Assembly: GCA_026390435.1 (NCBI GenBank)
Contig: JAPLFY010000110.1
Span: forward strand, 1 to 56,428
Length of the DNA: 56,428 bases
Source of the DNA: Pseudomonadota bacterium
GTDB taxonomy: Bacteria > Bdellovibrionota_B > Oligoflexia > Oligoflexales > CAIYRB01
Direction: 5' to 3'
Made by a program: the position numbers and the translations under genes. Within the stretch, counting starts at the first letter, position 1; each line of letters starts with the position of its first letter. The notes under the pieces are model-generated. The model was not told where the DNA came from, made no database searches, and saw only the letters and a program-made list of their open reading frames with translations. This document shows, piece by piece, positions 959 to 31,901 of the stretch.

Positions 959-2716
959 TCAGTGTGCCATCTGCTTCTCGACTAGGTGAAAGTAAACCCC
1001 TTGCTTATCCTGGATGAGTTCATCGTGAGTCCCTTTTTGCACGATGCGTCCATGGGCGAGCACGACCACTTGATCTGCGTACCTCACCGTCGATAGGCGA
1101 TGCGCAATCACGAGCACAGTACGCCCACGCATCAAGCGTTGCAAGGCCTCCTGTACCAAAGACTCACTCTCAGCATCAAGTGCACTAGTAGCCTCGTCTA
1201 GGATCAGAATCTTTGGGTCTTTTAACATCGCTCGTGCAATCGCAATGCGCTGGCGCTGCCCTCCAGAAAGTTGCACGCCCCTTTCTCCAACGAGAGTGTC
1301 GTAGCCGCTCGGAAACCGCTGAATGAACTCCTCTGCGTGTGCCGATAAAGCTGCCGACTTGATGTCTTCGAACGATGCATCTGGGCGCCCATAAGCGATG
1401 TTGTCGCGGATGCTGGTCGACATTAATATTGGCTCCTGAGCCACTGTGCCGATAGAGCGCCGCAGGCTTGAGCCAGAAAGTTTAGTTAGATTTTGGCTGT
1501 CTAGGGTAACGGCACCACCTAATGGGTCATAAAAGCGCTGCAGTAAGCCTGCAATAGTCGATTTTCCGCTACCGGAAGCGCCAACCAGGGCAACTACTTT
1601 TCCCGGACGGATATCCAGGTCGATATCTTGCAGGACTGGTACGTCGGGACGAGTCGGGTAGGCGAAGCTAACATGTCTAAATTGAATATCACCATCGACC
1701 TGAGTCAGCGTCTGCCCGTCTTCGTTTGGCAAACTTGGCACGCGGTCGAGTATTTGAAAAATGCGCCCCGCCGCGCCTGTCGCACTCATAAAATCGGTCC
1801 ATAGACTGCCTAAGGTTCCGGCGCTTACAGCGACGGTCACCGTGTAAAGAATGTAAGCCGACATCGTCCCAATGGTTAGCTCGCCAACTACAACCTGCCT
1901 AGCTCCGTACCATAGGACAGCGGCTATGGCAGTCAGGCCCCAAAGAGAGATGAGTCCCATAAATTTACCGATTTTTCTGATCCGTCCGCGTGCTAATTCC
2001 AATGCATGATCTAATGCTAGCGAAAATCTGTTGTTTTCGGTGTGTTCCGCCGCAAAGGAGCGGACCGTGCGAATGTTAGTCAGGGTTTCGTCAGCGACGG
2101 CACTGGCAACTCCAAGTGCCTCCTGGACCTGCCGCGAGGTGCCACGAATTTGTCCACCGAATTTGGCGACAACCACTGCTGCTGGTGGTAGTGCAGCCAA
2201 AAGCACCAGCGTCAGCTTGGGTGCTGTAATCACCATTAACACTAGACCACCAATAGTGGAGGCGAGATTTCGCAGTAGCATCGAAATGTTCACGCTCAGT
2301 GCATTTTGCAAAACACTAGCATCTGTCGTCAGGCGACTAAGAAGATCGCCAGTCATTTGACTGTCAAAAAAACCGATTTCCTGGCGTAGTAGCGACTGAA
2401 ATAGCTGGGCCTTGATCGCCCGCACTGTGCGTTCGCCAGAATAGGTGAAAAGGTAATAACGTGCCGCGGAGGTAATCGCCGTGGTGATAAGGATAGCCAT
2501 CATCGCGAGACCGATGCGATCTATGCTTGCAACATCGCCGTGATTTAGAGCTTGATCTAGAGCCTCTCGTACTGCTTGCGGAAAAATCAATGTGAGTGAT
2601 GATGAGATAACCAAACACACGGTGCCCCAGATTAGGCGCCGCCGTTCCGGTTTAGCGAACTTGAGTAGTTTACTGAGGGCAGTGAAACGGCCTAGGTTCG
2701 CAAGATCGTCATTCAC
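959..2716 (-). CDS. MsbA-type ABC exporter (fused permease and ATPase)
   Basis: A 585-residue half-transporter: six membrane segments in about residues 25-320 and a nucleotide-binding domain from about 345. Walker A is GASGSGKST (about residue 380), the signature is LSGGQRQR, Walker B is ILILDEATSALD, and the switch histidine is in IAHRLSTV. Such proteins act as homodimers exporting lipids, drugs or peptides across the inner membrane. The GTG start has AGGA 7 bases upstream. It lies 25 bases after the dikinase gene, so an export role for a product of this operon is plausible but not shown. Substrate cannot be read from sequence. Confidence 0.93.
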   Translation of the reverse strand: MNDDLANLGRFTALSKLLKFAKPERRRLIWGTVCLVISSSLTLIFPQAVREALDQALNHGDVASIDRIGLAMMAILITTAITSAARYYLFTYSGERTVRAIKAQLFQSLLRQEIGFFDSQMTGDLLSRLTTDASVLQNALSVNISMLLRNLASTIGGLVLMVITAPKLTLVLLAALPPAAVVVAKFGGQIRGTSRQVQEALGVASAVADETLTNIRTVRSFAAEHTENNRFSLALDHALELARGRIRKIGKFMGLISLWGLTAIAAVLWYGARQVVVGELTIGTMSAYILYTVTVAVSAGTLGSLWTDFMSATGAAGRIFQILDRVPSLPNEDGQTLTQVDGDIQFRHVSFAYPTRPDVPVLQDIDLDIRPGKVVALVGASGSGKSTIAGLLQRFYDPLGGAVTLDSQNLTKLSGSSLRRSIGTVAQEPILMSTSIRDNIAYGRPDASFEDIKSAALSAHAEEFIQRFPSGYDTLVGERGVQLSGGQRQRIAIARAMLKDPKILILDEATSALDAESESLVQEALQRLMRGRTVLVIAHRLSTVRYADQVVVLAHGRIVQKGTHDELIQDKQGVYFHLVEKQMAH

Positions 2717-2741: not shown

Positions 2742-5444
2742 TTAGCTAAGTGAGGGGGTCGGCTCTATAGCCTCCGGTACTATACGCACTTCACCGGCAC
2801 CCGCATCAACGATCAGGTGTTGTCCGGAGCGGATGCTCGATGTTAGGCCCGAGACGCCAATAATCGTCGGTAGTCCAAGCTCCCGTGCCACGACAGCGGA
2901 GTGGGATAGCAGGCTGCCCCTTTCCACAACCAAGGCGGAACAAACGGGATAGAGGGTGACCCAGCCTGGATCCGTGCGCTCTGCCACAAGTATCTCGCGG
3001 TTGACTACTTTTGCTTCGGTAAAAGTACGTGCTACTAGGGCTTTTCCCTCGACCCTCCCAGGGTAACAGGAGGTGCCCACAAGGATGTTGGTGTCTGTGA
3101 CGCCTTGGGTTTGCGGCTGTTGGTGGAGCGCGGAATAAATACTCGTTAGACCTGGGAGGCCCCTGCTGACTATTCGTTCTGCCGGTGCCGGAGTCTGATC
3201 GTAGGTCACATATTCGGTGCTTCTTAGATGAATCATGCCCTTAAGATCAAGGCTCACAGCTTTGCCGTGGACCAGATTTTCAAGTTCGTCAACAGTGAGC
3301 CAGAAGATATCTTTCGGACTGGAGATTAGGTTGAGTTTTGTCAGATGCTGGCCCATGGCTCTAAAGATTCGCCGTGGTACTCCGTAGGTGCGAGAGCGGA
3401 GCAAGCGGAGGCTTTCCCTGTCCGCTATTGCAGCACTGCACTGCTTGACGAGCCAACGCATAATCCAGCGCCGCATGCCGCTCATGGCCGCGATCAATAG
3501 TTCCGCCTCCTTGCGGCGGTCGTTTTTGTCATCGCGCCGCGTTTCCGTGGTCTGAAGGGGTGCGCTTAGATAAGTTTTTAGCAAAACAAAAATAGGACTG
3601 GCGTCGTAGGTCAAATCCTCTGTCTCTAGTTTTGCCTCGTCGGCACATCTGCAGCCATACTCGCGCAGATATTCGTCAACCTCTTTGCACAGAGCGCGCA
3701 GCTCGTAGGATTCGCGCAATTTGCTGATGGCCTCCTCTGGCCGGACCTGCAGTAACCAGTCGCGGCCGGGTAATGATCCTTCCCGGATTCGCTGGGCTAG
3801 TTGCATTAGAATGCGGGCTGGTGCAGCTGACACGAGCTCTGCTTCTTGGCCAAGAAGATCGTTAAAAATTTGCTTGTCGTTCGGTAACCAAGTCTCTGTG
3901 GTCTTTTTCAAAATGCCAAAAGACAGCATACAGCGCGTGTCATTTAGTATCGGAGCCTGCCAATGCAGGACCAGATCGTTGTAGGCACGCTGATACGCCT
4001 GTAGTTGGTCCTTTAAACTCATTTTTGAATAGTCGGCTTCCATGGCAGCGTCGCAGACTTTCACGACCCGTTGACGGAAGTCCTCAATACTTTTTTGCAG
4101 AGTCGCAAGGCGGTAGATTGCCGTGCCGATCAGAAATATTTTACGCTTCAAACTTGGTTTATAGCCGGGACCGGTGGAGTCAAAAAACTTGTCTGCTTGA
4201 TCGCCGAGGCTCTCTTTTACCCCCATCATTGTTTCCATAAAGCTGGAACTAGATTTGGCATTGGGTAGCAGATAGAGCATCTTGTACCAGTTTAGCAAAT
4301 TGTAATAGACACGGCCGCGGACTAGGCCCAGCATATTGCCAAATAAGCTATCATTCGCGTGGATAGTGGCCTCAGGTACTCCCATGATCCGACAAAAATC
4401 AATATAAACTTGTTTATATGACCGTGTAGCATGGCTAAATGTTAGCGGCATCACTGTGCCAGAAAAACTCTCGACAATATTGGCATTGTCCCAGATAATT
4501 CGTTCGTCGCCGGCAATTTTCGTGGAGAATGCCGAATTACTCGGTAGACTTGCAATGGGTCTGGCTTGAAGTAGTAACAAAGTTCCATTCGCGACACACC
4601 ACTCAAGATCTAGCGGGTGACCCATGGACTGCTCGATCGCCAAAGATGCTCGGGCTATCTCCTGCACCTGCGTGTGGCTAAGAGTTGCGGCAGTTGCTTT
4701 TGTCTCCGGTACTTCAACCTTTTGGGTGCCGCCTCCGATGCCTCTGCGGTAGCTGGACGTTTTGTTTGATACTTTACTCACCACAGTAAAATCGTGGCGA
4801 TGTACTTCGAAGTGATCCGGTTCTAAGTCACCGTTCACCAGACCTTCACCAACACCTAGCACTGCATCAATAAGTAACCAATCATGAGTTTTTCCCGGCA
4901 GAGGGCTGCGGCTAAAAGCCACTCCAGATACATCGGGATCGATCATCTCTTGAATAATGATTGCCATGCGACAGTCGATATTTGAGAGCTTTTTAAGCTG
5001 CAGGTAAGTATTTACCCTGGCGCTGTATGCAGAGATCCAGACAGCTTGAATTGCTGAGGTAATAGCATCCATGCCACTGACATAAAGTTGTGATTCGAAT
5101 AGGCCGGCGAAGCTGTGGTCTCTGTGATCCTCACCTATTGCACTTGAGCGTACGGCGAGGTCTTTGTTGATCAGGCCAGTAACCGTTAACGCTGAACATA
5201 TCTGAGATTTTAGCGCCTCAGGCCATTGACCACTACGCAGTGTGTCAAGAATCACCTTCCTATCCGACCCGGGACTCACGCCATTAGCAATGAGAAAGTT
5301 GTCGCGCCACTCAGCGGCAAGGCAGATAAAGCGAGGGATCTTGAAGCCTAAATCAGTGAGTCTGGCTAGGCCTAAAGCTTTTCCCCCAACATTTTGGCCT
5401 GCTAGCAAAATATCGCGACTGCTCTTTAATACGGTCGATTTCAT
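2742..5444 (-). CDS. PEP-synthase-like dikinase (PigC / rifampin phosphotransferase architecture)
   Basis: A 900-residue protein with an N-terminal PEP/pyruvate-binding ATP-grasp domain (residues 1-300: GGKALGLARL, AVRSSAIGED, closing motif LLLQARPI) and a C-terminal swivelling phosphohistidine domain (about 800-890; LLSHSAVVARELGLP, histidine near 847). It lacks the PEP-binding TIM barrel of true PEP synthase, and the 500-residue middle is unlike PpsA. This layout is shared by rifampin phosphotransferase and by ATP-dependent condensing enzymes such as PigC of prodigiosin synthesis, so it probably phosphorylates or condenses a small molecule; which one is unknown. ATG start with AGGA 8 bases upstream; in operon with the DUF3419 gene (40-base gap). 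A true ppsA is present elsewhere in the window at 23967. Confidence 0.85.
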   Translation of the reverse strand: MKSTVLKSSRDILLAGQNVGGKALGLARLTDLGFKIPRFICLAAEWRDNFLIANGVSPGSDRKVILDTLRSGQWPEALKSQICSALTVTGLINKDLAVRSSAIGEDHRDHSFAGLFESQLYVSGMDAITSAIQAVWISAYSARVNTYLQLKKLSNIDCRMAIIIQEMIDPDVSGVAFSRSPLPGKTHDWLLIDAVLGVGEGLVNGDLEPDHFEVHRHDFTVVSKVSNKTSSYRRGIGGGTQKVEVPETKATAATLSHTQVQEIARASLAIEQSMGHPLDLEWCVANGTLLLLQARPIASLPSNSAFSTKIAGDERIIWDNANIVESFSGTVMPLTFSHATRSYKQVYIDFCRIMGVPEATIHANDSLFGNMLGLVRGRVYYNLLNWYKMLYLLPNAKSSSSFMETMMGVKESLGDQADKFFDSTGPGYKPSLKRKIFLIGTAIYRLATLQKSIEDFRQRVVKVCDAAMEADYSKMSLKDQLQAYQRAYNDLVLHWQAPILNDTRCMLSFGILKKTTETWLPNDKQIFNDLLGQEAELVSAAPARILMQLAQRIREGSLPGRDWLLQVRPEEAISKLRESYELRALCKEVDEYLREYGCRCADEAKLETEDLTYDASPIFVLLKTYLSAPLQTTETRRDDKNDRRKEAELLIAAMSGMRRWIMRWLVKQCSAAIADRESLRLLRSRTYGVPRRIFRAMGQHLTKLNLISSPKDIFWLTVDELENLVHGKAVSLDLKGMIHLRSTEYVTYDQTPAPAERIVSRGLPGLTSIYSALHQQPQTQGVTDTNILVGTSCYPGRVEGKALVARTFTEAKVVNREILVAERTDPGWVTLYPVCSALVVERGSLLSHSAVVARELGLPTIIGVSGLTSSIRSGQHLIVDAGAGEVRIVPEAIEPTPSLS

Positions 5445-5484: not shown

Positions 5485-6630
5485 TCAGCATGGGTAGCGA
5501 TTATTAGTCCGTCCTTCAACCTTCTGAAATACACCGATTTTATAAATGCAGGTGATCTCGCTGCTGATAACCTTTTCGTATTTTATTGTGACATCTTCTA
5601 ACTCATCTAATTGAGTGGTTGGGGGACAGAAACGAAAATATCGCGCCACCGCGAGGCCGCCTGTCGCCATGCCCACATTCAGCTTTTGCATGATGTTAGG
5701 GGCGGACGTAGCTGATCCAGAGTAAGAAGGAGTGTCAGAAAGTGACACGAAGTTGGCAATACTGGGATTTTTTTCGAGGAACTCGTAAAGATCGGATTGT
5801 ACATAGCTAATGGCGCAGGATTTGATACCCCGTTGAATCTCTGAATAATGCAAATTAGAGCACTCGAGTGGGAGAGCCTCATCGTTTTCAAGTCGGCCAC
5901 GCAGCAGGATTTTCAAAAAAAAGTTCTCTCGGGCTAAGCTCACTCTCAGCGTTGAGGCAAGCCTGTCGTTAAAGTAGCAGTAATCACTTTTCGCGAGATT
6001 TAATTGTGGCAATTGATTGCCGTAAATAAGGCGATTAAATACATACGATTGACCGATCAGGGCCACTGCTAGTCGCCAGCGCCAGCGTGGAAATTTGTCT
6101 GCGAGATATTGCCTCTGCTCATCCATAGTGCGGCAGTGAAAAATAGCCAGTCCACTTGGCCCGATGATTCGTGCAGCAAATCGAGCTAATTTGCCGAATG
6201 CCTGCTCCCAGCGCCCTAAGTAAATAATGGGGCCCCAATTGGAACGACTGAATAATTCCGCTAAGCTAATTTTGGTATCGGTTGATAGGTTGAGGCGACC
6301 AAATACCTCTTGCCGTTCCTCAGCGCTAAAAGGCTGAGAACCGTAGCCAAAAAACCTGCGATAATCGTCTAGGCCTAAGGTTTTGGCGGCCTCGATTCTA
6401 AGTTCTGTCAGATGGAGTTGCTGTGGTGAAACGTCCACGCACACCAGAGACTTAGGTGCTTTTGCAAATAAAGGTAGAACTCTCGCCCCGCTGCCGGCTA
6501 CGCAGACGACGCAGTTAGCATCCCGTGGCAGGATACTTAGTTCCACCGCTGTGTCTTCATTGGCAAGGCTGTAATTCAGGACTGAGAAGTATTCCAATGA
6601 TTTTGGCCCCAAAGCAACAGAGCTCGGCAA
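5485..6630 (-). CDS. DUF3419 / BtaA-like AdoMet:3-amino-3-carboxypropyl transferase
   Basis: A 381-residue DUF3419 protein. The N-terminus shows the family hallmark LNYSLANEDTAVE followed by an AdoMet-binding glycine motif VAGSGARVLPL and the acidic strand VCVDVSPQQLHLTELR. BtaA, the characterised relative, moves the 3-amino-3-carboxypropyl group of AdoMet onto diacylglycerol on the way to betaine lipid; no BtaB-like N-methyltransferase is adjacent, so the acceptor here may differ. The annotated start is a TTG only about 20 bases after the predicted transcription start and has no clear ribosome-binding site; a TTG at residue 12 preceded by GGGG is an alternative. First gene of the leftward operon. 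Confidence 0.8.
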   Translation of the reverse strand: MPSSVALGPKSLEYFSVLNYSLANEDTAVELSILPRDANCVVCVAGSGARVLPLFAKAPKSLVCVDVSPQQLHLTELRIEAAKTLGLDDYRRFFGYGSQPFSAEERQEVFGRLNLSTDTKISLAELFSRSNWGPIIYLGRWEQAFGKLARFAARIIGPSGLAIFHCRTMDEQRQYLADKFPRWRWRLAVALIGQSYVFNRLIYGNQLPQLNLAKSDYCYFNDRLASTLRVSLARENFFLKILLRGRLENDEALPLECSNLHYSEIQRGIKSCAISYVQSDLYEFLEKNPSIANFVSLSDTPSYSGSATSAPNIMQKLNVGMATGGLAVARYFRFCPPTTQLDELEDVTIKYEKVISSEITCIYKIGVFQKVEGRTNNRYPC

Positions 6631-7048: not shown

Positions 7049-7225
7049 ATGCAAAATGTTCTGAGCATTAAATTGAAAAGAATCTGGATCATCACTGCCG
7101 TAGCCGGAGTTATGCTGTTGGCATCAGGATGTAGCACCACTGGCGGCGGTGGCGCCATGGGTGGTTTTTCAAACACTAGGGGAAGTTGTTTTGTCGCCGC
7201 TAGCGGCACGCCTTGGTGCCGCTGA
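7049..7225 (+). CDS. 58-residue lipoprotein
   Basis: A short gene: ATG with GAGG 7 bases upstream, then a basic, hydrophobic signal peptide (KLKRIWIITAVAGVMLL) ending in the lipobox LASGC at residue 28. The mature part is only about 30 residues: a glycine-rich run (TTGGGGAMGG) and a tail with two further cysteines, ending SGTPWCR. It would be attached to a membrane by the lipidated cysteine. Function unknown; the ribosome-binding site, signal peptide and lipobox together make it convincing. It is convergent with the ANL-UbiA fusion gene (15-base gap). Confidence 0.75.
   Translation: MQNVLSIKLKRIWIITAVAGVMLLASGCSTTGGGGAMGGFSNTRGSCFVAASGTPWCR
7203..7222. terminator. Hairpin at the end of the small lipoprotein gene
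   Basis: GCGGCAC-N6-GTGCCGC, a 7-bp stem over the last codons, overlapping a 12-base palindrome GCCGCTAGCGGC at 7197-7208. It sits between convergent genes and may limit read-through, but has no T-run, so termination is a guess. Confidence 0.3.
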
Positions 7226-7240
7226 ACTATTGGCGGAGTG

Positions 7241-9487
7241 TTATTTCAGCATTGCTAAAGCCCATAGCTGGCTGATGCCAACTAATAGGCTGCTTACCTC
7301 GACAAGTTGATAGCGATCCGGCCGGCGACGCCAGTATTGGATAGCGACAAAAAACAGTAAAAGGGTCGGCCAGGTCCATATGATAGTGCGCATGGATGCT
7401 CCGCCCAGTGCAGACACCAAGCCGCAGATCATGAGGAGGTATCCGGTCAGTTTCGGCCCATAGGCATGCAAATAGGTTTCCCGTCCCGGTGGAGCTTTGG
7501 GGTCTAACTTGCGTGACACTTCGTATGCCATCGAGCCAGCAAGATTCGCAAGAATGAAACCACATAGGATTCGTAGGTCGAGATCAGGGCGGCGTGGCAC
7601 TGCCAAGACCGGTAGCAAGTAAAGAGGTATGACAAGTAGTTGGTGAGTTAAAGCGTAGAGTAACGGAGACTTGGCTAAGCGCTCGCCAACAAAGAACTCT
7701 CGTTCCATCAAGAGAAGATAAAGAGTTGCCGTAAGGCCCATGATGGCGGCCCATGTGGCTTGCATGTAGGCTAGGCTGAAGGCCATTACTGCCATGCAAA
7801 TGGTCATTAAGTGTATTGCGGAGCGCGCTTCACTGATTTTTAGTAAGCCGCGAGGTAGTGGCCGTCCCGGATTGACGACGCAGTCTTTTTGATAGTCCTT
7901 ACATTCATCCATTAACCGGGCTAGTACTAGAGCTGCGACGACAAAGACAAAGCTCAGTGCTGCAAGCAGCCAATTTGAAGTCGGGCCGCTTGTATCCATG
8001 CCGCCAAAAGTTGGTCCAGAGGCCACCAGTGCGAGTCCGGGCAAGGCTGCACGCTCGTGGAAGAACATCAGCCAGCGTTTGACCTTTGATTTAGGGCGCA
8101 AAGTAGCAGCGCGGTCGATGCGGGTCCTGTGTCGCGGATCGCGCGCAATCGGTAGTCTGCAAATTGATGTGATCTCAGGAAAGCGGCGAAGAATGTCGAC
8201 TGTTTTCTTTGGGAGACGGTCAGTTACCAGAAAGCGCGAGTTAGCCGGTGAACGTGCGATGAATGCATTCGTGTGTTTCAGCAGAGGGAACAGTTTTTGC
8301 TCCAGCTGGAAATCATCGGAAGGTAGGTGTGATCTGCCTGCATAGTACCAGCCATCGGACCTGATTTCCATGCGGTCACCAGTTAAGTGCCAAGGGTACC
8401 CAGTGTTAATAGCGGGAGTTGGAATAATAGCCCGACTCGAATCGAGACATGCTTCGGAGCATACATTAGGTCCCGATACCCAAAGCCCTTCGGGGCGTAC
8501 CTCTGTTGTTAGGAAAGGAAGTGGCTCCCCGATATAGCGAATCTGACTCTCACCATTGGCCCTTGCCTTGCTCAGTGCCACTCGGGCGTCAACAAGCGCG
8601 ATCGGTTCTGCTTCACTGCAGCCGTAGACATGAGTTATCTCCGATTTCGGCCACCGTTTGCTTGCTGATTCAATCAGACGACAGTCAGTCGAGGCACCGC
8701 CGATATAGATATGTCTTAGGCTTTCAAAGCCGGGAACTTGCAGCAGTCGCTCGAGAAAGGCTGGGCTGGTGGTTAGAGTCTTGGGCTTCCGTGTCTTGGC
8801 GGCTCCTGCGAGCTTGGTAAGGGCACCATTGCTCCAACGGTGGTCGACAAGCATAGTGCCTCTGCCGCTAAATAAGTGCAGGGCTCCGATGGCGGGGAAT
8901 AGCGTCAGGTCGGGCTCTTCGTAGGGATCGCGGCAGCCACCCTCGGTCAAGATGTCGACTAAATCTACGGTGTATTTATGAGTGCGGATAATGCCCTTCG
9001 GGCGCCCCTGTGTCCCCGAACTGAAGGTAATAGTCGCTCCGGAGTCGCCTGGAGCATCTTCTAAAATAAAATCACCAGATCGTCGGGACAGAAGTTGGCT
9101 CAAGGTTGGTTGTACTTCAATCTTGCTCAAGGCGGGTATGCGGCTCATCAGGCGCCGAAGGACGGCGGACGTGACAAGAAACTTTGGCTGCGCCATTTGC
9201 ACTGCGTATTCAATAGAATGAACATCAAGCCATGGCTCTAGGAACATCAGGCGCCCACCTAGGCCGAGTACCGCGCAATATAAGGCGTAGGTTTCCGGGC
9301 TGGGTCTTAAAGCGAGCAACAGCGTGTCGCCAGGCTGAAAACTTAGGCTCATCAGGCAGGTTTGCATACCTGCCGCCAAAGTCAGCAGCTGCTCGTAGGT
9401 GACATCTCCGCTCGTCTGGTCCCACGTGGCTAGTTTGGTCGGAGCGCGGTCGCGGCATAAAACGATACGTCCAAGGGAGTTCGTCAC
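7241..9487 (-). CDS. Fusion of an ANL adenylating enzyme with a UbiA-type prenyltransferase
   Basis: A 748-residue two-domain protein. Residues 1-455 form an acyl/aryl-adenylate ligase: the phosphate loop TFSSGTQGRPKG near 152, HVYGCSEAE, and GDRMEIRSDGWYYAGR. The C-terminal ANL motif reads DPRHRTRID, where relatives such as OleC have DPRHNAKID, so the catalytic lysine is replaced. Residues 470-748 are a UbiA-family membrane protein with about eight hydrophobic segments, the acidic motif MDECKDYQKD near 524 followed by RPLPRGLL, and a second motif YEVSRKLDP. ANL enzymes activate carboxylates with ATP; UbiA enzymes put isoprenoid chains on aromatic or other acceptors. The fusion suggests an activated acid is handed to a membrane prenyl or acyl transfer step. 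GTG start with AAAGGA upstream; divergent from the GNAT gene. Confidence 0.85.
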   Translation of the reverse strand: MTNSLGRIVLCRDRAPTKLATWDQTSGDVTYEQLLTLAAGMQTCLMSLSFQPGDTLLLALRPSPETYALYCAVLGLGGRLMFLEPWLDVHSIEYAVQMAQPKFLVTSAVLRRLMSRIPALSKIEVQPTLSQLLSRRSGDFILEDAPGDSGATITFSSGTQGRPKGIIRTHKYTVDLVDILTEGGCRDPYEEPDLTLFPAIGALHLFSGRGTMLVDHRWSNGALTKLAGAAKTRKPKTLTTSPAFLERLLQVPGFESLRHIYIGGASTDCRLIESASKRWPKSEITHVYGCSEAEPIALVDARVALSKARANGESQIRYIGEPLPFLTTEVRPEGLWVSGPNVCSEACLDSSRAIIPTPAINTGYPWHLTGDRMEIRSDGWYYAGRSHLPSDDFQLEQKLFPLLKHTNAFIARSPANSRFLVTDRLPKKTVDILRRFPEITSICRLPIARDPRHRTRIDRAATLRPKSKVKRWLMFFHERAALPGLALVASGPTFGGMDTSGPTSNWLLAALSFVFVVAALVLARLMDECKDYQKDCVVNPGRPLPRGLLKISEARSAIHLMTICMAVMAFSLAYMQATWAAIMGLTATLYLLLMEREFFVGERLAKSPLLYALTHQLLVIPLYLLPVLAVPRRPDLDLRILCGFILANLAGSMAYEVSRKLDPKAPPGRETYLHAYGPKLTGYLLMICGLVSALGGASMRTIIWTWPTLLLFFVAIQYWRRRPDRYQLVEVSSLLVGISQLWALAMLK

Positions 9488-9574: not shown

Positions 9575-9677
9575 CAATATTGGTCGCATGATAGGATAGA
9601 GGAAATTTCCCAGCTCCGAAGTTTTTGTACACAGATACATTTAAGAAATCCGGTAGGGTGCCTTGCCGCGGGGTCAA

Positions 9678-10715
9678 ATGTCACTACGTATCGAATCATT
9701 TGCTGACACCGCAGATAAGGCCGAATTTATCCGGGCTTTTAGCACCTTTGGCCCCGAAGTCGTGGGGCTTTCGCAGCACTACCTCGAAACTCTCTTGCCG
9801 CTTTATATTGCATCCGGAAACATGTGGGTTGCGCGAATCGACGGCACAGTGGTGGGGCGATTAGCGGGTAGTAGATCGACAGTGGATCTGAGGCGGGGCG
9901 GCCTTGGACTTTTAGCGCTTGATGAACATCATTCAAGGCGGCGCGAGATCGGGCAGTTATTAATTCAAGTGTCACTAGACTGGCTGGTTAAACTCGGCGT
10001 GGATCAAACGTTCGCACCCATTGATATCAATACTTGGTTCAGATTTCGCCTAGCAGAAGAAGACTTTCGTCATCCGCCTCCTTTCTCTTGGGAGCCAGGT
10101 GTGCAGCAGCTTTGGCAAGAAATTCTCCAGAAATCTGGATTCTCCAAGGCGATTCATTTCAAAACTGCCATATTTGACACGCCAGATCTTTCCCCCGCGC
10201 TAAATGTACTGGGTCCGCATGTGCGAAGGGCCGAGGCAGAGGGGTATACCTTTCGTAATTTTGCCAGCGATGGTGATTTGGACCGCGACCTGCGACTAAC
10301 CCATCAATTTTCCCACGCGTGTTTTCAAGGCAGTGCCTTATTTGAACCCCTCGAGTTTTCACTCTATGAGAGTTCGTTTGGGGATATTGTCAGGGCTGGT
10401 GCTAAAGACACGTCATTTTTTATCTGTGGCCCAGACGGGAGGGAGCTCGGATTCATTTTTGCGTTTATAGAAAATAATTATCTGGTGGTTAAGACGATTT
10501 ACGTACTACCAGATTTCGCGCGGGAAAAAGCTCGTAAATGGGCTGCTTCAGCCACTTTACTGCACAGAGCTATTCAGCGGGGCATGGAACTAAAGGTGAG
10601 GGGAGGGGTGGCGGCTATGATGCGTGATGATGCCACTAGCAATCTCCTCGTGCGTTGGCAGAAGTGGATGGAACCTATCATGCGTCACTACTTCCTACTG
10701 GCGCATGATGTTTGA
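9678..10715 (+). CDS. Tandem GNAT-family acyltransferase
   Basis: About 345 residues that look like two GNAT (acyl-CoA N-acyltransferase) folds. The first half has the central strand and acyl-CoA loop (GLLALDEHHSRRREIGQLLI); the second has a similar pattern (VVKTIYVLPDFAREKARKWA). GNAT proteins transfer acyl groups to amines; the substrate is not readable. I place the start at the ATG at 9678 behind GCGGGG; a TTG at 9663 is the alternative. It is divergent from the ANL-UbiA gene and 86 bases before the lipoprotein gene, so it may open the rightward half of the same cluster. Confidence 0.7.
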   Translation: MSLRIESFADTADKAEFIRAFSTFGPEVVGLSQHYLETLLPLYIASGNMWVARIDGTVVGRLAGSRSTVDLRRGGLGLLALDEHHSRRREIGQLLIQVSLDWLVKLGVDQTFAPIDINTWFRFRLAEEDFRHPPPFSWEPGVQQLWQEILQKSGFSKAIHFKTAIFDTPDLSPALNVLGPHVRRAEAEGYTFRNFASDGDLDRDLRLTHQFSHACFQGSALFEPLEFSLYESSFGDIVRAGAKDTSFFICGPDGRELGFIFAFIENNYLVVKTIYVLPDFAREKARKWAASATLLHRAIQRGMELKVRGGVAAMMRDDATSNLLVRWQKWMEPIMRHYFLLAHDV

Positions 10716-10801: not shown

Positions 10802-12220
10802 ATGAAACGTAAATTAGTAGCCCTAACCTTTGGCGGAGTAGCCTTATTTTCTCATGTCGGTTGCAAAAACCCGACTAATTCAGAAAGCAAAGCCAGGGAT
10901 TCATCAGTTAAAAGCCGCGTAGGTAATGCGACTGAAGAACAGGAATCACCAGCATACAAAGCATTTGTGAGCGAATTTGTTGCCATCAAAAATGCCGATG
11001 ATTTTGCCGCCCTTGTTGGCAAACTTCAACGAGATTACAATACTTATCCCGTCGACCTGAAGTTCGTTGCGGCGCAACTCATACCTCTATCTGGTCTTCG
11101 GGGCCTTGGATATCTGGTGCATAACCTCGCTGTTCAGAGCAAGGTTACGGACAGTCTAGCAGTGACTGGTCTGATGGTGACTGCGAGTGGGATCAACCTA
11201 TTTTCGCCACCCCCGGCAAATGGGGGAACTGGTACTGCGGCATGGTCGGCGATTTTTGATTATCTAACTATGCCCTTTGCGGGTGTATCTGAGAAGTTCA
11301 AAAGTGTACGAGATCTGCAGGCTTTTATTCACACCAATCTGGTTGCTAATAAAGCCTTGGATACGGCGATTTCCAGGATTTCTGAGTTGAATATCACGGC
11401 AAATACGCCAGTGGTCTGGGACAATCGTTTGGTATACGGTGCAAATGGCTTCGCGGATAGTCAAGACCGCTTTGTCACCCTAACAGACTCTGAGAAGAAT
11501 GTAGCCATTGCTGGCCTACACTCGATCTATCACAACACATTAGTCTTTCTGTCCTATAATTATGACGACTCCATCAAGGCTATGGATAAAGTCGGTAGGC
11601 TGGTTGGACTGGATGTTGTTTTGCCTGGTCAACCTGACGGAGTTGCGGCGCAAGATAGAGCTAAAATCATTCGCAGCTTCCCAGCTTTGTTCACAGCACT
11701 GCCAGCTGCTGCTGAATATATGCCTGCGGCATATGCACATCTGAAGGCTTCAGTCGATGCCGTTGGCGAGGCATGGCGCGCAACTAAAGCTCAGGGCAAC
11801 AATAGCTCAAATGATTTCCAACTACTCAGTCCGGCAAAGATCTTGCCATGGCAACGCATCAACGATGTGTCTTTGAGCAATATCAGGGCTCTGGTGAATG
11901 GTCAGCCTGTGCGTAGCGCGGTCACTGGAGAAACAGTGACGATGAATATACCCGCATTTTACAACAATCCGCCGCAGAATATGCAGGCATTTTTACCCGT
12001 CGCCTTCAAGGCGGGAGACCATAATATTGTAGTGGCGGGACAAACGACGCGTAATTATCACTACGGTGAGGCAGAGCTGTGGGACGTCAACGCCTTTAAG
12101 CCTTATATGCCTGGTGTTAATAGTTCAACAGACGTGGCGCGTGATATTCGGATTTTAGGACAGGTATGGGGCGGATGGTTTGCCAGTGTTCCGACGGTGG
12201 CTATGACTATTGCAATGTGA
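10802..12220 (+). CDS. Lipoprotein of unknown function (472 residues)
   Basis: Strong ribosome-binding site (GGAGG, 4 bases before ATG). The N-terminus (MKRKLVALTFGGVALF) followed by SHVGC at about residue 21 looks like a lipoprotein signal, with an atypical residue before Val-Gly-Cys as is common in Bdellovibrio-like bacteria. A polar serine/asparagine/lysine linker follows, then a mostly helical globular part. I recognise no domain. It is 23 bases upstream of the MMPL exporter gene and probably co-transcribed, which suggests a periplasmic or outer-membrane partner of that exporter. Confidence 0.8.
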   Translation: MKRKLVALTFGGVALFSHVGCKNPTNSESKARDSSVKSRVGNATEEQESPAYKAFVSEFVAIKNADDFAALVGKLQRDYNTYPVDLKFVAAQLIPLSGLRGLGYLVHNLAVQSKVTDSLAVTGLMVTASGINLFSPPPANGGTGTAAWSAIFDYLTMPFAGVSEKFKSVRDLQAFIHTNLVANKALDTAISRISELNITANTPVVWDNRLVYGANGFADSQDRFVTLTDSEKNVAIAGLHSIYHNTLVFLSYNYDDSIKAMDKVGRLVGLDVVLPGQPDGVAAQDRAKIIRSFPALFTALPAAAEYMPAAYAHLKASVDAVGEAWRATKAQGNNSSNDFQLLSPAKILPWQRINDVSLSNIRALVNGQPVRSAVTGETVTMNIPAFYNNPPQNMQAFLPVAFKAGDHNIVVAGQTTRNYHYGEAELWDVNAFKPYMPGVNSSTDVARDIRILGQVWGGWFASVPTVAMTIAM

Positions 12221-12243: not shown

Positions 12244-14505
12244 ATGAACGCATTTAATTGGCGGCAGATATTTTTGGTGTTTCCGGGAGTGCCGCTGCAG
12301 CGTATGTTGCGCGCGGCCTTCCGGCGCCCCAAGAGTGTGTTAGCAGTGTTTGCACTTGCCACAGCTTTGCTATTGCCCGGTTTAGGTAGTCTTAAAATAT
12401 TATTATCTGTAGTCGATATGCTTGACTCAAAGGCCCCGTCTCGACAAGCTAACTTGCTGGCTAAAAGCGCATTTCCTGGTGATCAAGAACTAAGCGTGAT
12501 TTTTCAGCGGCGTGATGGTCAGCCGCTAAATCAGGGTCAATTATGCCGAATCCGTACTTGGACTCGGAATCTTGATTTTACTAATCAAGAATTACAATTT
12601 ATCAATTCTCCGTTCCATGTGCGTATAGGCCAAGAGGCGACGCGTGAATTGCAATATCCGCTGCTTATGCCGCTGGACTGCGATGCTGTCTCCAGTCCAA
12701 ATAACACAAGGCTAGGGCTAGTGCTTGACTCGCCATTTGAGCGGATTTTCGTGGGTACGCGTCAAGATACCGTTCTTGTGGACTTATTCCTAAGAAATAC
12801 TTTAGGCGGTAGCCGATATGGTGCGTTTGACCCTGCACCTGTGAGCGAGATTCAGACCAGTTTGGCTTCAGCATTTCCTCAGGCGGAGAAGATCCAGACA
12901 AGTATTAGCAGTAGCGCTGCTTTTAAGTGGTATTTCGTCAAAAGCTTGATGCAAGACCAGAGTGTAAATTTGCTGGTGCTAGTTGTCTTTTGTTTTGGTT
13001 TTCGTGCACTTTTTGGATCGTGGCGCGGTGCTTTTTTGCTAGCTGCGTCTTTAATTATGAGTACTTTGATTCTTTTTTCTGGGATGGGATTCTTTGGTAC
13101 TCCCATCGATATCCTTACAAATAGTCTATTCACTATCGTTGCGTTGGCTTCCGCTGAAGACTTTTTGTATCTTTCTCAGGCTCAGCAGAGTCAGCCGCCC
13201 GGATCGAGTTGGCGCGAGCCATTTCGCAAGTTGATTCTACCGTCTTTTTATACTTCCCTCAGTACTGTGATTGGCTTCGCCTCACTCTGTTTGTCCGATA
13301 TCACGCCGATCCGACACCTCGGACTTTGGGCGGCGGTTGGTGCTGGCCTCGAATTTTTTATCGTGTTTTTGATGCTTCCGGGCTTCCTACAAATATTTCC
13401 GAAGATGCGGCGTTGGACTAGGCAGCACCCGACTAGTTTGACCCGTCGTTTGTCAGTTTTAAGTCATATGCGTCTACCTGTGCCTTTTTTTCACGCGCTT
13501 ATCGTTATATTTGTTGTGGCCTCTTTCGGTTTTACGCGCCTTGAGGTTCAAGATTCCCTTGAACGTATGTGGGACTCGCATCACTCATTTAATCTGAGCA
13601 TGCGGCAACTGCGGGATAGTTTTGGCTGGAACGGTGCTCTCGACTTGGTCCTGCGTGACTCTGGTCGTAGCGCGGAGCATCGCGCCATCCTGAACAAAAT
13701 TTCGCATGTCCCAGGGGTAGTTAAGATCGAAGATCCTTATGAACTTCTCGATTTCACTGGCAAGGATTTATCAACAAGTCGGCGGGAGCTACAGCGCCGA
13801 GAATTTGCTCTGTCCCCGGCATATGCACGATGGTTTTCGACGAAAGATCCTTTGGTAAGGGCGACCATTTTTACCTCAGGTTCCGACCTGGCTACTTTGC
13901 GGCCGATCAGAGAGAGAGTCGAAGAACTCTGCGGTAAGGAATTGTGTTTTTTGACCGGCGATCTTGCCGCATATGCTGATTTTTCGGATCATGTGATCAC
14001 CACTCTGATAGGCAGCTTTGTGCTAAGTCTTGTTCTCGTGGCCGCACTTATTTTTGCACTATCCAGAGCTCTCAGGGTGCGTGCCGCACTGCCGTTGATA
14101 GCCTCTTCGATGTGGGGACCGTTCGTTCTTCTCGGCCTGACGCCACTTGTGTTTGGGGGTGTGAATTTTGTTACCTGCGTATTTGCAGCCGTACTGGTCG
14201 GTCTCGCTGGTGACAGCGGTATTCAATTTTTGTTCGCCAGCCGGCATGGGAGTATAGAAGAGGGTATGCGAAGCAAAGGTGTGGGATCGGTGCAGATGGC
14301 TTTTCTTGCATCTACGGCATCACTTGCCTATTTAAAGTCAGATTTCGCTCAGCCACGGATTTTGGGCCTGCTGTTTGCTGCCGGGTTTATTTGCATGCTC
14401 GTGGGAGACCTCTGGCTACTGCGGGGTTTTTTGGGTCTGAAGTGGCATCGAAAGCGTAAGTATGGTTTAGGCTTTGATTCCACAAGCGAGACTCGGCGAA
14501 TATAA
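12244..14505 (+). CDS. MMPL/RND-family lipid exporter
   Basis: A 753-residue transporter of the MMPL/HpnN branch of RND proteins: one N-terminal membrane helix (about 35-55), a soluble periplasmic loop, five or six helices at about 235-380, a second membrane helix near 415, a second loop, and a final helix bundle at about 590-735. The conserved intramembrane acidic motif is visible twice (ALASAEDFLY in the first bundle, GLAGDSGIQFLF in the second). Relatives export complex lipids or hopanoids using the proton gradient. With the upstream lipoprotein it probably forms an envelope export unit for the lipid-type product suggested by the neighbouring genes. Confidence 0.88.
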   Translation: MNAFNWRQIFLVFPGVPLQRMLRAAFRRPKSVLAVFALATALLLPGLGSLKILLSVVDMLDSKAPSRQANLLAKSAFPGDQELSVIFQRRDGQPLNQGQLCRIRTWTRNLDFTNQELQFINSPFHVRIGQEATRELQYPLLMPLDCDAVSSPNNTRLGLVLDSPFERIFVGTRQDTVLVDLFLRNTLGGSRYGAFDPAPVSEIQTSLASAFPQAEKIQTSISSSAAFKWYFVKSLMQDQSVNLLVLVVFCFGFRALFGSWRGAFLLAASLIMSTLILFSGMGFFGTPIDILTNSLFTIVALASAEDFLYLSQAQQSQPPGSSWREPFRKLILPSFYTSLSTVIGFASLCLSDITPIRHLGLWAAVGAGLEFFIVFLMLPGFLQIFPKMRRWTRQHPTSLTRRLSVLSHMRLPVPFFHALIVIFVVASFGFTRLEVQDSLERMWDSHHSFNLSMRQLRDSFGWNGALDLVLRDSGRSAEHRAILNKISHVPGVVKIEDPYELLDFTGKDLSTSRRELQRREFALSPAYARWFSTKDPLVRATIFTSGSDLATLRPIRERVEELCGKELCFLTGDLAAYADFSDHVITTLIGSFVLSLVLVAALIFALSRALRVRAALPLIASSMWGPFVLLGLTPLVFGGVNFVTCVFAAVLVGLAGDSGIQFLFASRHGSIEEGMRSKGVGSVQMAFLASTASLAYLKSDFAQPRILGLLFAAGFICMLVGDLWLLRGFLGLKWHRKRKYGLGFDSTSETRRI

Positions 14506-14698: not shown

Positions 14699-15862
14699 CT
14701 AGTTTTTGTCGACAAATATATCGCGACAGAAGGTGTTGACCGCTTCGCTATCGCCGATGATAGGGCATTTGCCGCGAGAGATCGGGTTATTACTAAAGTC
14801 GAGATACTTGACATATCGAAGCGAACTATTTTTTGCCAAGGACCTCAGGTCGGTAACTTTATTGTTAGCGATGTGCAGTACTTCAAGATTGGTTAGTCCG
14901 GCCAATGGGGCCAGATCGTCGAGTTGATTATCGTTAGCGTAGAATCTGACCAGTGTCTTGGCTGCGGCTAGCGAATCAACCGATTTAATTTGGTTAGCGG
15001 AAACGTCAAGCTCTTCAAGAGCAGTCAGTTTTTCGACTCCGCTTAAGTTAGTCAGACCATTGCCGGACACGTTGAGAATCGTCAACTGCACCCAGTCTGT
15101 GCTAGCGGGTAGTTTCGTCAGTTTGTTGTTGGCAGCGACTAATGAGGTCAGGTTCTTGAGTTGGTAAAGAGGCCCAAGGTCATTAAGCCCGTTGTCTGAG
15201 ACATCAAGCGTTTCCAGTCGGGTGGCTCGGGTCAGTAGCGTCAAATCTACAAGGCCTTGTCCTGGAAGTGCCAGATCGGCCATGCTGGCTAGACGCTTTA
15301 GCATGTCAATACAGTTACGTGTTTGCGTGGACTTTTGCAAAATAAGGGCTGTCTTGCCTAATTCGCCTTGATCATTGGCTGCCCTGTCGCAGACCTGCTG
15401 GTCACTCGACGTGATCGAGCGTATTGCGCGTACGCCTCCTTGTCTCAGGAGCGAGGCAGCGTGCCCTCGCCAATCAGTGGCTTTACCCTCTGGGAGTGTG
15501 CTGATGTCTACCCAGGCCGTGGTTGCGTCGCTTCCGAACGATATGCGCCCGGTGACGGATTCGCTAATGGTAACAGTTAGGTCGTAGCGGACATCGTCGC
15601 CTAAGTTCGCCACTTTTAAATGGCGTATCGAACCGAGCATCCGGAGTTTGTCTTTGGTAAATTGAAGCTCATCTGGCGTTGGGACCTGCCAATGGTCGCC
15701 GAATAGATGGACATCTTTGGCCTCATCATGGCCTGCTAAAGCCGTGGCCACGCGGTCTAAGTCGGCATTGTCTGGGCTTGATAGCGGCGCCGATCCAGTC
15801 GTCCGACACCCACTAAGCGCGAGGCAAATGATTGTACATAAGCTGACGAACCGCCTGTTCAT
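14699..15862 (-). CDS. Leucine-rich-repeat lipoprotein
   Basis: A 387-residue lipoprotein. The start at 15862 is set by AGGAG 6 bases upstream and by the signal peptide it gives (MNRRFVSLCTIICLALSGC, lipobox LSGC); the frame is open 33 bases further back. The first 180 residues have no recognised domain. From about 210 to 370 there are six or seven internalin-type repeats of about 22 residues (LETLDVSDNGLNDLGPL, LEELDVSANQIKSVDSL, LEVLHIANNKVTDLRSL) and a C-terminal cap with two cysteines. Likely a surface or periplasmic protein-binding scaffold. It stands alone, convergent with the MMPL gene. Confidence 0.9.
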   Translation of the reverse strand: MNRRFVSLCTIICLALSGCRTTGSAPLSSPDNADLDRVATALAGHDEAKDVHLFGDHWQVPTPDELQFTKDKLRMLGSIRHLKVANLGDDVRYDLTVTISESVTGRISFGSDATTAWVDISTLPEGKATDWRGHAASLLRQGGVRAIRSITSSDQQVCDRAANDQGELGKTALILQKSTQTRNCIDMLKRLASMADLALPGQGLVDLTLLTRATRLETLDVSDNGLNDLGPLYQLKNLTSLVAANNKLTKLPASTDWVQLTILNVSGNGLTNLSGVEKLTALEELDVSANQIKSVDSLAAAKTLVRFYANDNQLDDLAPLAGLTNLEVLHIANNKVTDLRSLAKNSSLRYVKYLDFSNNPISRGKCPIIGDSEAVNTFCRDIFVDKN

Positions 15863-15908
15863 GAGATCTCCTGCACTGAAATGAATCTTGAACATGAGCC
15901 TAGCAAAG

Positions 15909-23966: not shown

Positions 23967-26393
23967 ATGGCAGCCAGAAGTCAGCAGTCGTACATCCAGT
24001 GGTTTGAGGATATCTGTTACAAGGATGTGGCTAGGGTAGGTGGTAAAAACGCCTCCCTTGGTGAGATGTTCCGTGAGCTAGGTCAAGAGGGTATAACAGT
24101 TCCGCCCGGCTTTGCCGTAACTGTGGAGGCATATTGGCGTCATATTGACGCCAACAAGCTTCGCAGCAAGATTGAGGAGTTGTTGATTTCTCTATCCAAG
24201 CGTCCAGATGATTTGCCAAAAATCGCACAGGATTTACGCCACTTAATCCTTGAGGCGCCACTTCCCATTGATCTTGTCCGCAGCGTCACTCAGGCCTATG
24301 ACGAGTTGTCTGAGCGTTGTGGAGAACTGGCGGACGTAGCCGTTCGCAGCAGCGCCACTGCTGAGGATTTGCCAACTGCGAGTTTCGCCGGCCAGCAGGA
24401 AACATTTCTCCATGTGCAAGGTCAAAATGCTCTACTTGAAACGTTGCGCCAGTGCTTCGCATCTTTGTTTACTGATCGAGCTATATCGTACCGCACGGAT
24501 AAAAAATTCGAACACCTTAAGGTAGGGCTTTCCGTCGGCATTCAGCGCATGGTGAGGTCCGATCTCGCTGCGGCTGGCGTGATGTTTACCCTCGACACAG
24601 AGACGGGTGCGAGAGACGTAGTGCTGATCAACTCATCCTACGGACTCGGTGAGGCTGTGGTTCAGGGTGCTGTAAATCCTGATGAATTTTATGTTTTTAA
24701 GCCGACGCTACTGCAAGGTAAAAAGGCTATCTTGCATAAGCGCGCTGGTAGTAAAGAGTTCAAACTAGTGTACGACACAGGTGCTGGACGACGTACGCGC
24801 ATCGAATCTGTCGCCGTGGTAGATCGAGAGCGCATGTCGTTATCCGATGAGGATATTCTGCAGTTGTCGCAGTGGGCTTGCCGTATCGAAAAGCATTACA
24901 GCGACAAGCTTGGCGTGCCTACGCCGATGGACATCGAGTGGGCCAAGGATGGTTTAACGGGTAGGCTGTTTATACTGCAGGCTCGCCCCGAAACGGTTCA
25001 TTCGCAGCGAGGGGCGCTGAAGATCGATGTTTATTCTCTAGACGCTGCTATTCGAGAAAAAGCGAAAGTCATTTTGCGGGGAAGAGCAGTTGGAGACCGC
25101 ATCGGTGTTGGTTTAGTGCGTGTTATAGATGATCCTCGGCATTTGGACCAGCTGCAGCAGGGAGAGGTTTTAGTCGCCCAAAAAACTGATCCTGATTGGG
25201 AACCAGCTATGAAACGGGCTGCAGCCATCATTACCGATCGTGGTGGGCGTACGTGCCATGCTGCCATAGTTAGTCGTGAGTTGGGTATTCCTGCAGTTGT
25301 TGGTTGTGAGTATGCCACCTCGTTACTCAAGATAGGCCAAAATGTCACTGTCTCCTGTGCGGAAGGTGATACAGGGACAATTTTCGACGGTCTACTTCCG
25401 TTTACGCGTCAAGCGGTGGATGCTTCGACTCTCAGGCCGACCTTTACAAATATCATGCTCAATGTAGCGAATCCGGACGAAGCGCTGCGTCTTGGCCTAC
25501 TGCCCAGCGACGGCGTCGGCTTAGCGCGGATGGAGTTTATTATCAGCCACGCGATTAAAGTTCATCCGATGGCCCTGGTAAAATATGATGATTTTCCCGA
25601 TTGTGAAGAAAAGCGTGAAATCGACAAAATTACCAAGGGATGTCTGCGTCGCTCGGATTACTTTGTCGATAAGCTGGCTGAGGGCGTCGGGATGATAGCT
25701 GCGGGCTTTTACCCGCGTGAAGTAATCATTCGCTTTAGTGATTTTAAAACGAACGAATATGCTGGGCTTCTCGGCGGTAAATTCTTTGAACCAGTCGAAG
25801 AGAACCCAATGCTCGGATTCCGCGGAGCCTCACGTTATTACCATGAACGATATCGACTTGGGTTTGCATTGGAGTGCGCTGCCATTCGGCGCGTCCGAGA
25901 TGATTTCGGTCTAACAAACGTTAAGGTGATGATTCCATTCTGCCGGACTGTTGCCGAAGGTCGCAAAGTGATCGCTGAGATGGCGCAAAATGGTCTGAAG
26001 CGAGGTGAGGCTGGTCTGGAAATTTACGTTATGTGTGAAATCCCAAGTAATATCATTCTTGCTGACGAGTTCTCAGAGATCTTCGATGGTTTTTCTATTG
26101 GATCAAATGATTTAACCCAGCTGATCCTGGGAGTCGACCGCGATTCCGAGATTGTGGCCTCACTCTTTGATGAGCGCAACAAAGCCGTCACCTCTATGAT
26201 TGAAACTGTAATAGAGAAGGCTCATGCCAAAGGTCGTAAGGTTGGGATTTGTGGCCAGGCTCCAAGCGACTACCCAGAGTTTGCCAGTATGTTGGTGCGG
26301 TTCGGTATTGATAGTATATCGCTGAGTCCGGACAGTTATGTGCGTACCGCAAGGATGATTGCACAATTAGAAGAGACTGGCCATGACCGTTAG
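23967..26393 (+). CDS. ppsA: Phosphoenolpyruvate synthase
   Basis: 808 residues, near the 792 of E. coli PpsA. Converts pyruvate, ATP and water to PEP, AMP and phosphate. Domains: ATP-grasp (1-340; GGKNASLGEMF, AVRSSATAEDLPTASFAGQQ, LFILQARPETV), phosphohistidine domain (about 375-480; GGRTCHAAIVSRELGIP, catalytic histidine near 431) and PEP-binding TIM barrel (about 490-800; GFRGASRYY, GSNDLTQLILGVDRDS, GICGQAPSDYP). All expected motifs are intact. Located immediately before the hydrogenase beta gene (23-base gap), coupling gluconeogenesis to hydrogenase expression. Confidence 0.96.
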   Translation: MAARSQQSYIQWFEDICYKDVARVGGKNASLGEMFRELGQEGITVPPGFAVTVEAYWRHIDANKLRSKIEELLISLSKRPDDLPKIAQDLRHLILEAPLPIDLVRSVTQAYDELSERCGELADVAVRSSATAEDLPTASFAGQQETFLHVQGQNALLETLRQCFASLFTDRAISYRTDKKFEHLKVGLSVGIQRMVRSDLAAAGVMFTLDTETGARDVVLINSSYGLGEAVVQGAVNPDEFYVFKPTLLQGKKAILHKRAGSKEFKLVYDTGAGRRTRIESVAVVDRERMSLSDEDILQLSQWACRIEKHYSDKLGVPTPMDIEWAKDGLTGRLFILQARPETVHSQRGALKIDVYSLDAAIREKAKVILRGRAVGDRIGVGLVRVIDDPRHLDQLQQGEVLVAQKTDPDWEPAMKRAAAIITDRGGRTCHAAIVSRELGIPAVVGCEYATSLLKIGQNVTVSCAEGDTGTIFDGLLPFTRQAVDASTLRPTFTNIMLNVANPDEALRLGLLPSDGVGLARMEFIISHAIKVHPMALVKYDDFPDCEEKREIDKITKGCLRRSDYFVDKLAEGVGMIAAGFYPREVIIRFSDFKTNEYAGLLGGKFFEPVEENPMLGFRGASRYYHERYRLGFALECAAIRRVRDDFGLTNVKVMIPFCRTVAEGRKVIAEMAQNGLKRGEAGLEIYVMCEIPSNIILADEFSEIFDGFSIGSNDLTQLILGVDRDSEIVASLFDERNKAVTSMIETVIEKAHAKGRKVGICGQAPSDYPEFASMLVRFGIDSISLSPDSYVRTARMIAQLEETGHDR

Positions 26394-26416
26394 TTTTGGA
26401 CAGGAGGCAACTTTAC

Positions 26417-27586: not shown

Positions 27587-27596
27587 AAGGTGGATT

Positions 27597-28076
27597 GTGG
27601 TGACTTTACGAACGATAGACGATCAGATTGCCGATCATCCTTTCTTTGCGGGGTTGGGCTCCGATTTTTTACACTTTATTGCTGGCTGTGGTCGCAACCG
27701 CTATGTCGAAGGTGGCGAGTATTTAGCCCACGAGGGCGATGATGCGAACGCTTTTTTTCTGATTCGGATCGGGAAAATCTCAATAGAAACGAATGTACCT
27801 GGCCGTGGTCCAGTGGTGTTAGAAACCTTTGGAGCTGGCGACATTGCTGGCTGGTCCTGGATTTGTCCGCCTTATAAATGGGCATTTGATGTAGTTGCCC
27901 GTGAGGCCGCGTCATTTATCGAAATCAATGGCCTATGCCTGAGGGGTAAATGTGAAGCTGATCCGGTACTTGGGTATGCGGTCTTGAAACGCTTTGCCGG
28001 GATGATGAGTGAACGTCTGCGGGACACTCGGCTGAGGCTCTTGGATCTTTATGGTAACGATCGCAAAAGAAGTTAA
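27597..28076 (+). CDS. Stand-alone cyclic-nucleotide-binding-domain protein
   Basis: 159 residues containing only a CRP-type cyclic-nucleotide-binding fold ([43 protein letters not shown]) and a C-terminal helix ([24 protein letters not shown]). The helix-turn-helix of CRP/FNR regulators is missing, so it is not a DNA-binding regulator by itself. The phosphate-binding cassette is divergent. Embedded between beta and gamma subunit genes and overlapping the latter by 26 bases, it probably binds the hydrogenase complex as an allosteric or assembly protein; that is inference. Starts with GTG. Confidence 0.85.
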
Positions 28077-31583: not shown

Positions 31584-31610
31584 TAAAAAAAGCAGGGAGG
31601 TCGAGAAATC

Positions 31611-31877: not shown

Positions 31878-31901
31878 TCCCTAAACCAGGTTGAGTTCAC
31901 T

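Follow-up and report, generated by a model that had tools for sequence, protein, structure and literature searches.

A conserved fusion of an adenylating (ANL) domain and a UbiA-family membrane domain with altered motifs in both active sites

The gene described here encodes a genuine two-domain membrane protein, which lies in a conserved cassette with constant partners and carries fixed changes in both of its active sites. ANL and UbiA enzymes form large families, and their members are usually separate proteins. Our reading is that the fusion is a membrane enzyme acting in two steps in an uncharacterised prenyl-lipid or meroterpenoid pathway, and that its ANL half forms an adenylate for use at the membrane; we put the probability of this reading at about one half. 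The gene lies in a stretch of 56,428 nucleotides ("the window") from the genome of a bacterium of the phylum Bdellovibrionota_B (contig JAPLFY010000110.1).

The fusion gene and its two active sites

An ANL (AMP-binding) domain and a UbiA-family membrane domain share a single stop-free open reading frame of 748 codons on the minus strand (7241-9487). A preliminary description, made from the sequence, had given these coordinates and the single-chain layout without stating the strand; the open frame, the Pfam matches and the existence of fused homologues bear it out. The Pfam model AMP-binding covers residues 15-330 (E 2.6e-29) and the model UbiA residues 499-722 (E 5.8e-9; 36 bits vs a gathering cut-off of 34.2). 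Upstream of the GTG start (9487) lies AAGGATCTGAGC, which is kept in a 94%-identical relative. An AlphaFold model (two input sequences) has a mean pLDDT of 33 and a pTM of 0.21, too low to read a domain interface from.

Table 1. Features of the fusion gene and of the adjoining genes in the window
Feature	Position	Strand	Basis
MsbA-type ABC exporter adjoining the cassette	959..2716	-	profile matches
PPDK_N + C-terminal PEP-utilizers (phospho-His) protein, RPH/PigC domain order	2742..5444	-	profile matches; 19/21 loci
DUF3419 (BtaA-like, SAM-dependent) protein, cassette partner, cl2	5485..6630	-	Pfam PF11899 1.4e-31
ANL-UbiA fusion protein, 748 aa	7241..9487	-	GTG start at 9487
UbiA-superfamily membrane domain, residues 499-748, ~8-9 hydrophobic segments	7244..7993	-	Pfam + alignment
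Altered UbiA motif 2 EVSRK, residues 656-660, replaces DxxxD	7508..7522	-	alignments
UbiA motif 1, RLMDECKDYQKDCVVNPGRPLPRG, residues 524-547	7847..7918	-	alignments
Linker/joint, residues 460-500; split relatives stop and restart here	7988..8110	-	dN/dS 0.07
ANL C-terminal subdomain, shortened, residues 385-459, A8 loop deleted after GR	8111..8335	-	alignment
R456 codon, column of the catalytic A10 lysine	8120..8122	-	alignment
ANL N-terminal core, residues 1-384, A3/A5/A7 intact	8336..9487	-	Pfam AMP-binding 15-330 + alignments
A7 motif TGD, residues 369-371	8375..8383	-	alignments
A3 phosphate-binding loop SSGTQGRPKG, residues 156-165	8993..9022	-	alignment
Two-part GNAT acyltransferase, divergent, cassette partner, cl4	9663..10715	+	Pfam 2e-7
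Uncharacterised protein, lipoprotein-like start, cl14; also beside paralogue II (L032)	10802..12220	+	
MMPL/RND (HpnN-like) transporter, cl15; also beside paralogue II	12244..14505	+	profile matches

The ANL domain had been called complete. That is true of its N-terminal core, which holds A3 (SSGTQGRPKG), A5 (YGCSEAEP) and A7 (TGD), with A3, A5 and the A7 Asp conserved and all three motifs kept across homologues of 29-94% identity; it is not true of the C-terminal subdomain, which is shortened, lacks the A8 loop and is not matched by Pfam. The replacement of the catalytic lysine, already recognised in the preliminary description, proves to be a trait of the whole clade of fused and split-gene proteins: DPRHRTRID occupies residues 450-458, R456 aligns exactly with the A10 lysine, and, among scorable members, this alignment column holds Arg in 11 and Gln in one (L031) of the 12 fused and split proteins, as against Lys in 9/9 stand-alone relatives. 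The same clade is without approximately 8 residues of the A8 loop after GR, and 84-86 residues separate its A7 Asp from the A10 column, vs 94-107 in the scorable stand-alone relatives.

What might these changes do? Adenylation, the first half-reaction, is the step in which the A10 lysine acts (PMC8388817); losing this residue should therefore weaken that step, and would not halt the enzyme at the adenylate. The earlier suggestion that the enzyme may stop there cannot be argued from the lysine, then, and is better argued from the missing A8 loop, whose loss would speak against ordinary CoA transfer. Adenylation by the Arg-bearing ANL half may persist, since arginine keeps the positive charge.

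The proposed likeness of the ANL half to OleC stands at the level of family: the best NCBIfam model is PRK09274 (7.7e-29), and the OleC models match as well (1e-10 and 1e-5), far below cut-off (40.6 and 23.7 bits vs equivalog cut-offs of 900 and 850). A stand-alone ANL relative matches PRK09274 at 4e-110. An Ole hydrocarbon pathway was considered for the window and rejected for want of ole neighbours: profile searches of the window genes scanned found no OleA, OleB or OleD. An OleD-like reductase (cl12) adjoins one fused locus, L037.

In the UbiA half, motif 1 ((N/D)xxxDxxxD) is kept, with D527, D531 and D535 invariant. The DxxxD of motif 2 is absent, and ExxRK is found in 22/22 subfamily proteins compared, fused or not, a comparison that takes in Roseinatronobacter and Streptomyces clavuligerus; the initial assignment to a UbiA subfamily with EVSRK was correct. 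Mutating the motif 2 aspartates abolishes the function of EcMenA (PMC4106721). Y590 is nearly invariant in the fused proteins and is a putative TM4 tyrosine, equated with Y139 of AfUbiA by position only. Pfam UbiA is matched by 11/16 members of the subfamily at E 0.001. Among solved structures, digeranylgeranylglyceryl phosphate (DGGGP) synthase 6m31 comes nearest (34.5 bits, E 1.1e-7), a match that is, judged by its score, too weak for a reaction to be assigned; no DGGGP synthase equivalog of NCBIfam is matched over its cut-off by the fusion, and Asp motif 3 differs. Besides the fusion, the same genome encodes three UbiA proteins, namely a heme O synthase, a UbiA of the quinone type and a HAD-UbiA, and for that reason the fusion probably has a dedicated role. 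A housekeeping part in quinone or heme synthesis was considered and is unlikely, given those canonical proteins.

Conservation and origin of the fusion

The same gene with the same neighbours occurs in an independent lake MAG (contig CAIWTN010000077.1, 94% identity, in a scan sensitive to close relatives), and seven further genomes of the phylum carry fused homologues of 29-54% identity (G004, G005, G015, G048, G050, G052 and G053). With its own genome and the lake MAG counted in, the fusion occurs in 9 of the phylum's 58 genomes. G004 and G005 have two copies each (one of those in G005 is cut at a contig end), and the copy in G053 has its N-terminus cut. G004 and G005, of two species of one genus, each carry two paralogous fusion genes, every one with its own neighbours (L031 and L032 in G004; L033 and L041 in G005). 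No record in a plasmid search covers 80% of the fusion, which is accordingly not seen outside the phylum, and no relatives of it were found among viral contigs. Between the two closest copies dN/dS is 0.11 overall, 0.12 in the ANL core, and 0.07 in both the ANL C-terminal subdomain and the linker; the value in the linker shows the joint to be under purifying selection as coding sequence.

Might the long frame nevertheless result from a missed stop or a frameshift between two genes, introduced in sequencing or assembly? The preliminary description had held that relatives with separate genes and a stop between them would point that way. Two such relatives, G030 and G054, exist, but so do many fused copies alongside them, and an artefact is not implied. 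Against it stand the 94% copy in an independent MAG, several fused homologues, diverged in sequence and from different genera, and the purifying selection on the linker. An artefact is so improbable that it can be set aside, being ruled out by the intact diverged homologues; the separate genes show ancestry or fission instead.

A coupled pair of ANL and UbiA genes is the source of the fusion. In the split pairs of G030 and G054 the two genes overlap at the same joint as in the fusion, with the start of UbiA lying 16 bases (L039) or 1 base (L040) ahead of the end of ANL. In more distant relatives ANL and UbiA are encoded by stand-alone genes, which are adjacent in L042-L046. Trees of the ANL and UbiA parts both separate the stand-alone proteins from a single clade of fused and split ones (support 100/100 and 97/99). 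In this clade the ANL tree pairs the fused protein of L037 with the split one of L039 (96/96), so that at least two changes must have occurred: either two fusions, or one fusion and a later fission. Pairwise distances of the ANL part, the UbiA part and a PPDK-like partner correlate (r 0.86-0.94; Mantel p 0.001), partly through a shared organism history.

Stand-alone ANL relatives have entered into another fusion, of an alpha/beta hydrolase with ANL (L043 9235-11757; also L044-L046). In these loci it adjoins a formyltransferase-like gene, a UbiA gene and a PPDK-like gene.

The gene cassette

The neighbours of the fusion were not raised in the preliminary description, and these conserved partners say more about its function than does the fusion by itself. 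The PPDK-like protein is the most constant: it is found in 19 of 21 loci (window counted in), and the two loci without it lie on a 9.9 kb contig and at the end of a contig. DUF3419 (12 members) and GNAT (8 members) proteins also recur among the 21 loci compared.

The PPDK-like protein of the window (2742-5444) is without the PEP-binding barrel PF02896, which is present in the window's canonical PEP synthase (23967-26393); its identity as a PEP synthase was rejected on that ground. The full-length PPDK-like cassette proteins share a conserved phospho-His motif (SHSA or SHTA). Against NCBIfam the protein matches PigC (2e-98), Rph (1e-75) and also RedH, all below the equivalog cut-offs. Since the barrel is missing, the phospho-His kept, and the matches are to PigC, RedH and rifampin phosphotransferase, it is taken to be a phosphotransferase or ligase of the PigC/RPH arrangement.

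Elsewhere in the window, a short open reading frame on the plus strand between the DUF3419 gene and the fusion (7050-7226) encodes a 58-residue lipoprotein-like peptide (MQNVLSIKLKRIWIITAVAGVMLLASGC...), and a leucine-rich-repeat protein (14699-15895, minus strand) lies downstream of the transporter genes. The canonical PEP synthase gene opens a NiFe hydrogenase locus (23967-34208), in which Fe-S, NAD-binding, NiFe-hydrogenase and HypF genes follow.

Six cassette loci hold an extra HMG-CoA reductase-kinase fusion of 794-945 aa; an extra HMG-CoA reductase beside the cassette points to a demand for isoprenoid. The window's own cassette is without one. HMG-CoA reductase is encoded in 57 of the 58 genomes of the phylum, mostly at ordinary length, and the form joined to an APH/ecdysteroid-kinase-like domain (L033 1768-4566, L032 10715-13552, L047 8951-11677) is additional to the ordinary enzyme. 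Further genes at other loci encode a lipid kinase, acyl reductases, an AurF-like protein, and LolCE-like or MsbA-like transporters.

An unfused set is found on a plasmid of Roseinatronobacter sp. S2: UbiA, PEP/pyruvate-binding, DUF3419, membrane, GNAT-like and AMP-binding proteins. The membrane protein (L080 18464-19783) matches no Pfam or NCBIfam family; by eye it looks like a CTP-dependent prenol/phytol kinase. This being a cultured strain, the product of the cassette can be searched for. On a plasmid of S. clavuligerus (L082), genes for AfsA-like, isoprenylcysteine methyltransferase, PEP/pyruvate-binding and UbiA-like (ExxRK) proteins stand in a row, and on one of S. durmitorensis (L083), genes for AfsA-like, isoprenylcysteine methyltransferase and PigC-arrangement phosphotransferase proteins lie near each other.

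Proposed function and its rivals

How might such a protein work? The ANL half would bind ATP and a carboxylic acid and form, or at least hold, an acyl-adenylate; with A8 lost, the acyl group would not be passed to CoA in the usual way and would go instead to a membrane-held acceptor. Onto this acceptor, or onto the product, the UbiA half would transfer an isoprenoid chain from the cell's mevalonate pathway, and the fusion would hold a reactive intermediate in position within the membrane. The PigC/RPH-like phosphotransferase, the DUF3419 protein (aminocarboxypropyl-transferase-like) and the GNAT protein might then decorate the prenylated lipid or meroterpenoid, and an ABC or MMPL transporter might move the decorated product. 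The intact ATP-binding motifs, the conservation of the fusion and of its joint, the constant partners, and the conserved phospho-His of the PPDK-like protein argue for this two-step enzyme; the near-universal HMG-CoA reductase, its extra copy in six cassette loci and the DGGGP synthase as nearest solved relative argue for the use of an isoprenoid. Telling against it are the absence of the A10 lysine, which serves adenylation (PMC8388817), the replacement by E and K of the motif 2 aspartates that are essential in EcMenA (PMC4106721), the lack of an extra HMG-CoA reductase in the window's cassette, and the part of the distance correlation that is due to shared organism ancestry.

The same changes in the ANL half (the A10 Lys replaced by Arg, or Gln in one protein, the A8 loop lost, the C-terminal subdomain shortened and unmatched by Pfam) can be read as the marks of a pseudoenzyme, which would bind a nucleotide or acyl-adenylate and serve the UbiA half as a scaffold, sensor or membrane-side lid, and do no chemistry. 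We hold this to be doubtful, if the strongest of the alternatives: A3, A5 and A7 are kept across 29-94% identity, dN/dS is low in the core and lower in the C-terminal subdomain, and the charge is retained by Arg in 11/12. That the protein is an ordinary CoA ligase and prenyl-diphosphate transferase pair, like MenE/MenA or XimA/XimB, merely brought into one chain, is unlikely; known pathways, such as that of xiamenmycin (PMC4053376), do use an ANL and a UbiA enzyme together, and UbiA motif 1 and the putative TM4 tyrosine are kept, but the residues that those chemistries use (A8 loop, A10 Lys, DxxxD of motif 2) are changed throughout a clade or subfamily, and the cassette partners differ from those of quinone or benzoate pathways.

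A further reading lays the novelty on the donor of the UbiA half: ExxRK might grip a monophosphate, the acyl-adenylate made by the ANL half, or an alcohol phosphorylated by the PPDK-like protein, in place of a prenyl diphosphate with two magnesium ions. The constancy of ExxRK in the subfamily and the phosphotransferase near almost all of its members fit such a donor, but motif 1 is of the diphosphate type and the idea hangs on two residues, and we think it less probable still than the ordinary pair. That the acyl-adenylate of the fused ANL is consumed in the same chain by the ExxRK-rebuilt UbiA-fold site, with a donor other than prenyl diphosphate, is likewise a long shot; if true, acid activation and membrane transfer would be one channelled reaction, and the lipid pathway a new one. 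The two-step prenyl-lipid or meroterpenoid enzyme is the reading that we prefer to all of these. The fixed changes in both active sites invite tests of how much rewiring the chemistry of ANL and UbiA enzymes allows.

Comparison with known systems

Among open-licence papers, we found no ANL-UbiA fusion, no account of the cassette, and no UbiA protein together with DUF3419 or PEP-utilising enzymes. The conserved cassette that the fusion marks occurs in a phylum that has been little studied and on a plasmid of Rhodobacterales; no description of its product was found.

A parallel is found in xiamenmycin synthesis, where XimA (ANL) and XimB (UbiA) serve one meroterpenoid pathway (PMC4053376); they are separate proteins from separate genes, the prenyltransferase is aromatic (acting on 4-hydroxybenzoate), the ANL enzyme makes an amide, and the five xim genes include no PPDK-like, DUF3419 or GNAT partner. 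The arrangement of a soluble domain fused ahead of a UbiA domain has its counterpart in the HAD-UbiA fusion PRK08238 of the same genome (L003), but there the soluble domain is phosphatase-like instead of ANL and the family is a described one, matched over its cut-off. The UbiA-like enzymes EboC and Ubi-297 (PMC9235831) likewise belong to a conserved multi-phylum operon without a known product; the operon and subfamily are other ones, and EboC is absent among the models listed for the fusion.

Taken part by part, the ANL half has its best NCBIfam match in the family of PRK09274 and the OleC-type beta-lactone synthetases, but scores below every curated cut-off, has Arg for the A10 Lys, has lost A8, has no OleA adjacent and is fused to UbiA. 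The UbiA half shares motif 1, the putative TM4 tyrosine and 8-9 membrane segments with the UbiA superfamily and 6m31, but has ExxRK for DxxxD, matches the profile weakly and stands outside all NCBIfam equivalogs. The PPDK-like partner shares with the prodiginine ligases PigC and RedH and with rifampin phosphotransferase an ATP-grasp domain, a middle region and a C-terminal phospho-His domain; it branches apart from PigC in the tree, falls below the cut-offs and has other neighbours. Both superfamilies, then, are known; what is new is the ANL-UbiA architecture with its altered motifs.
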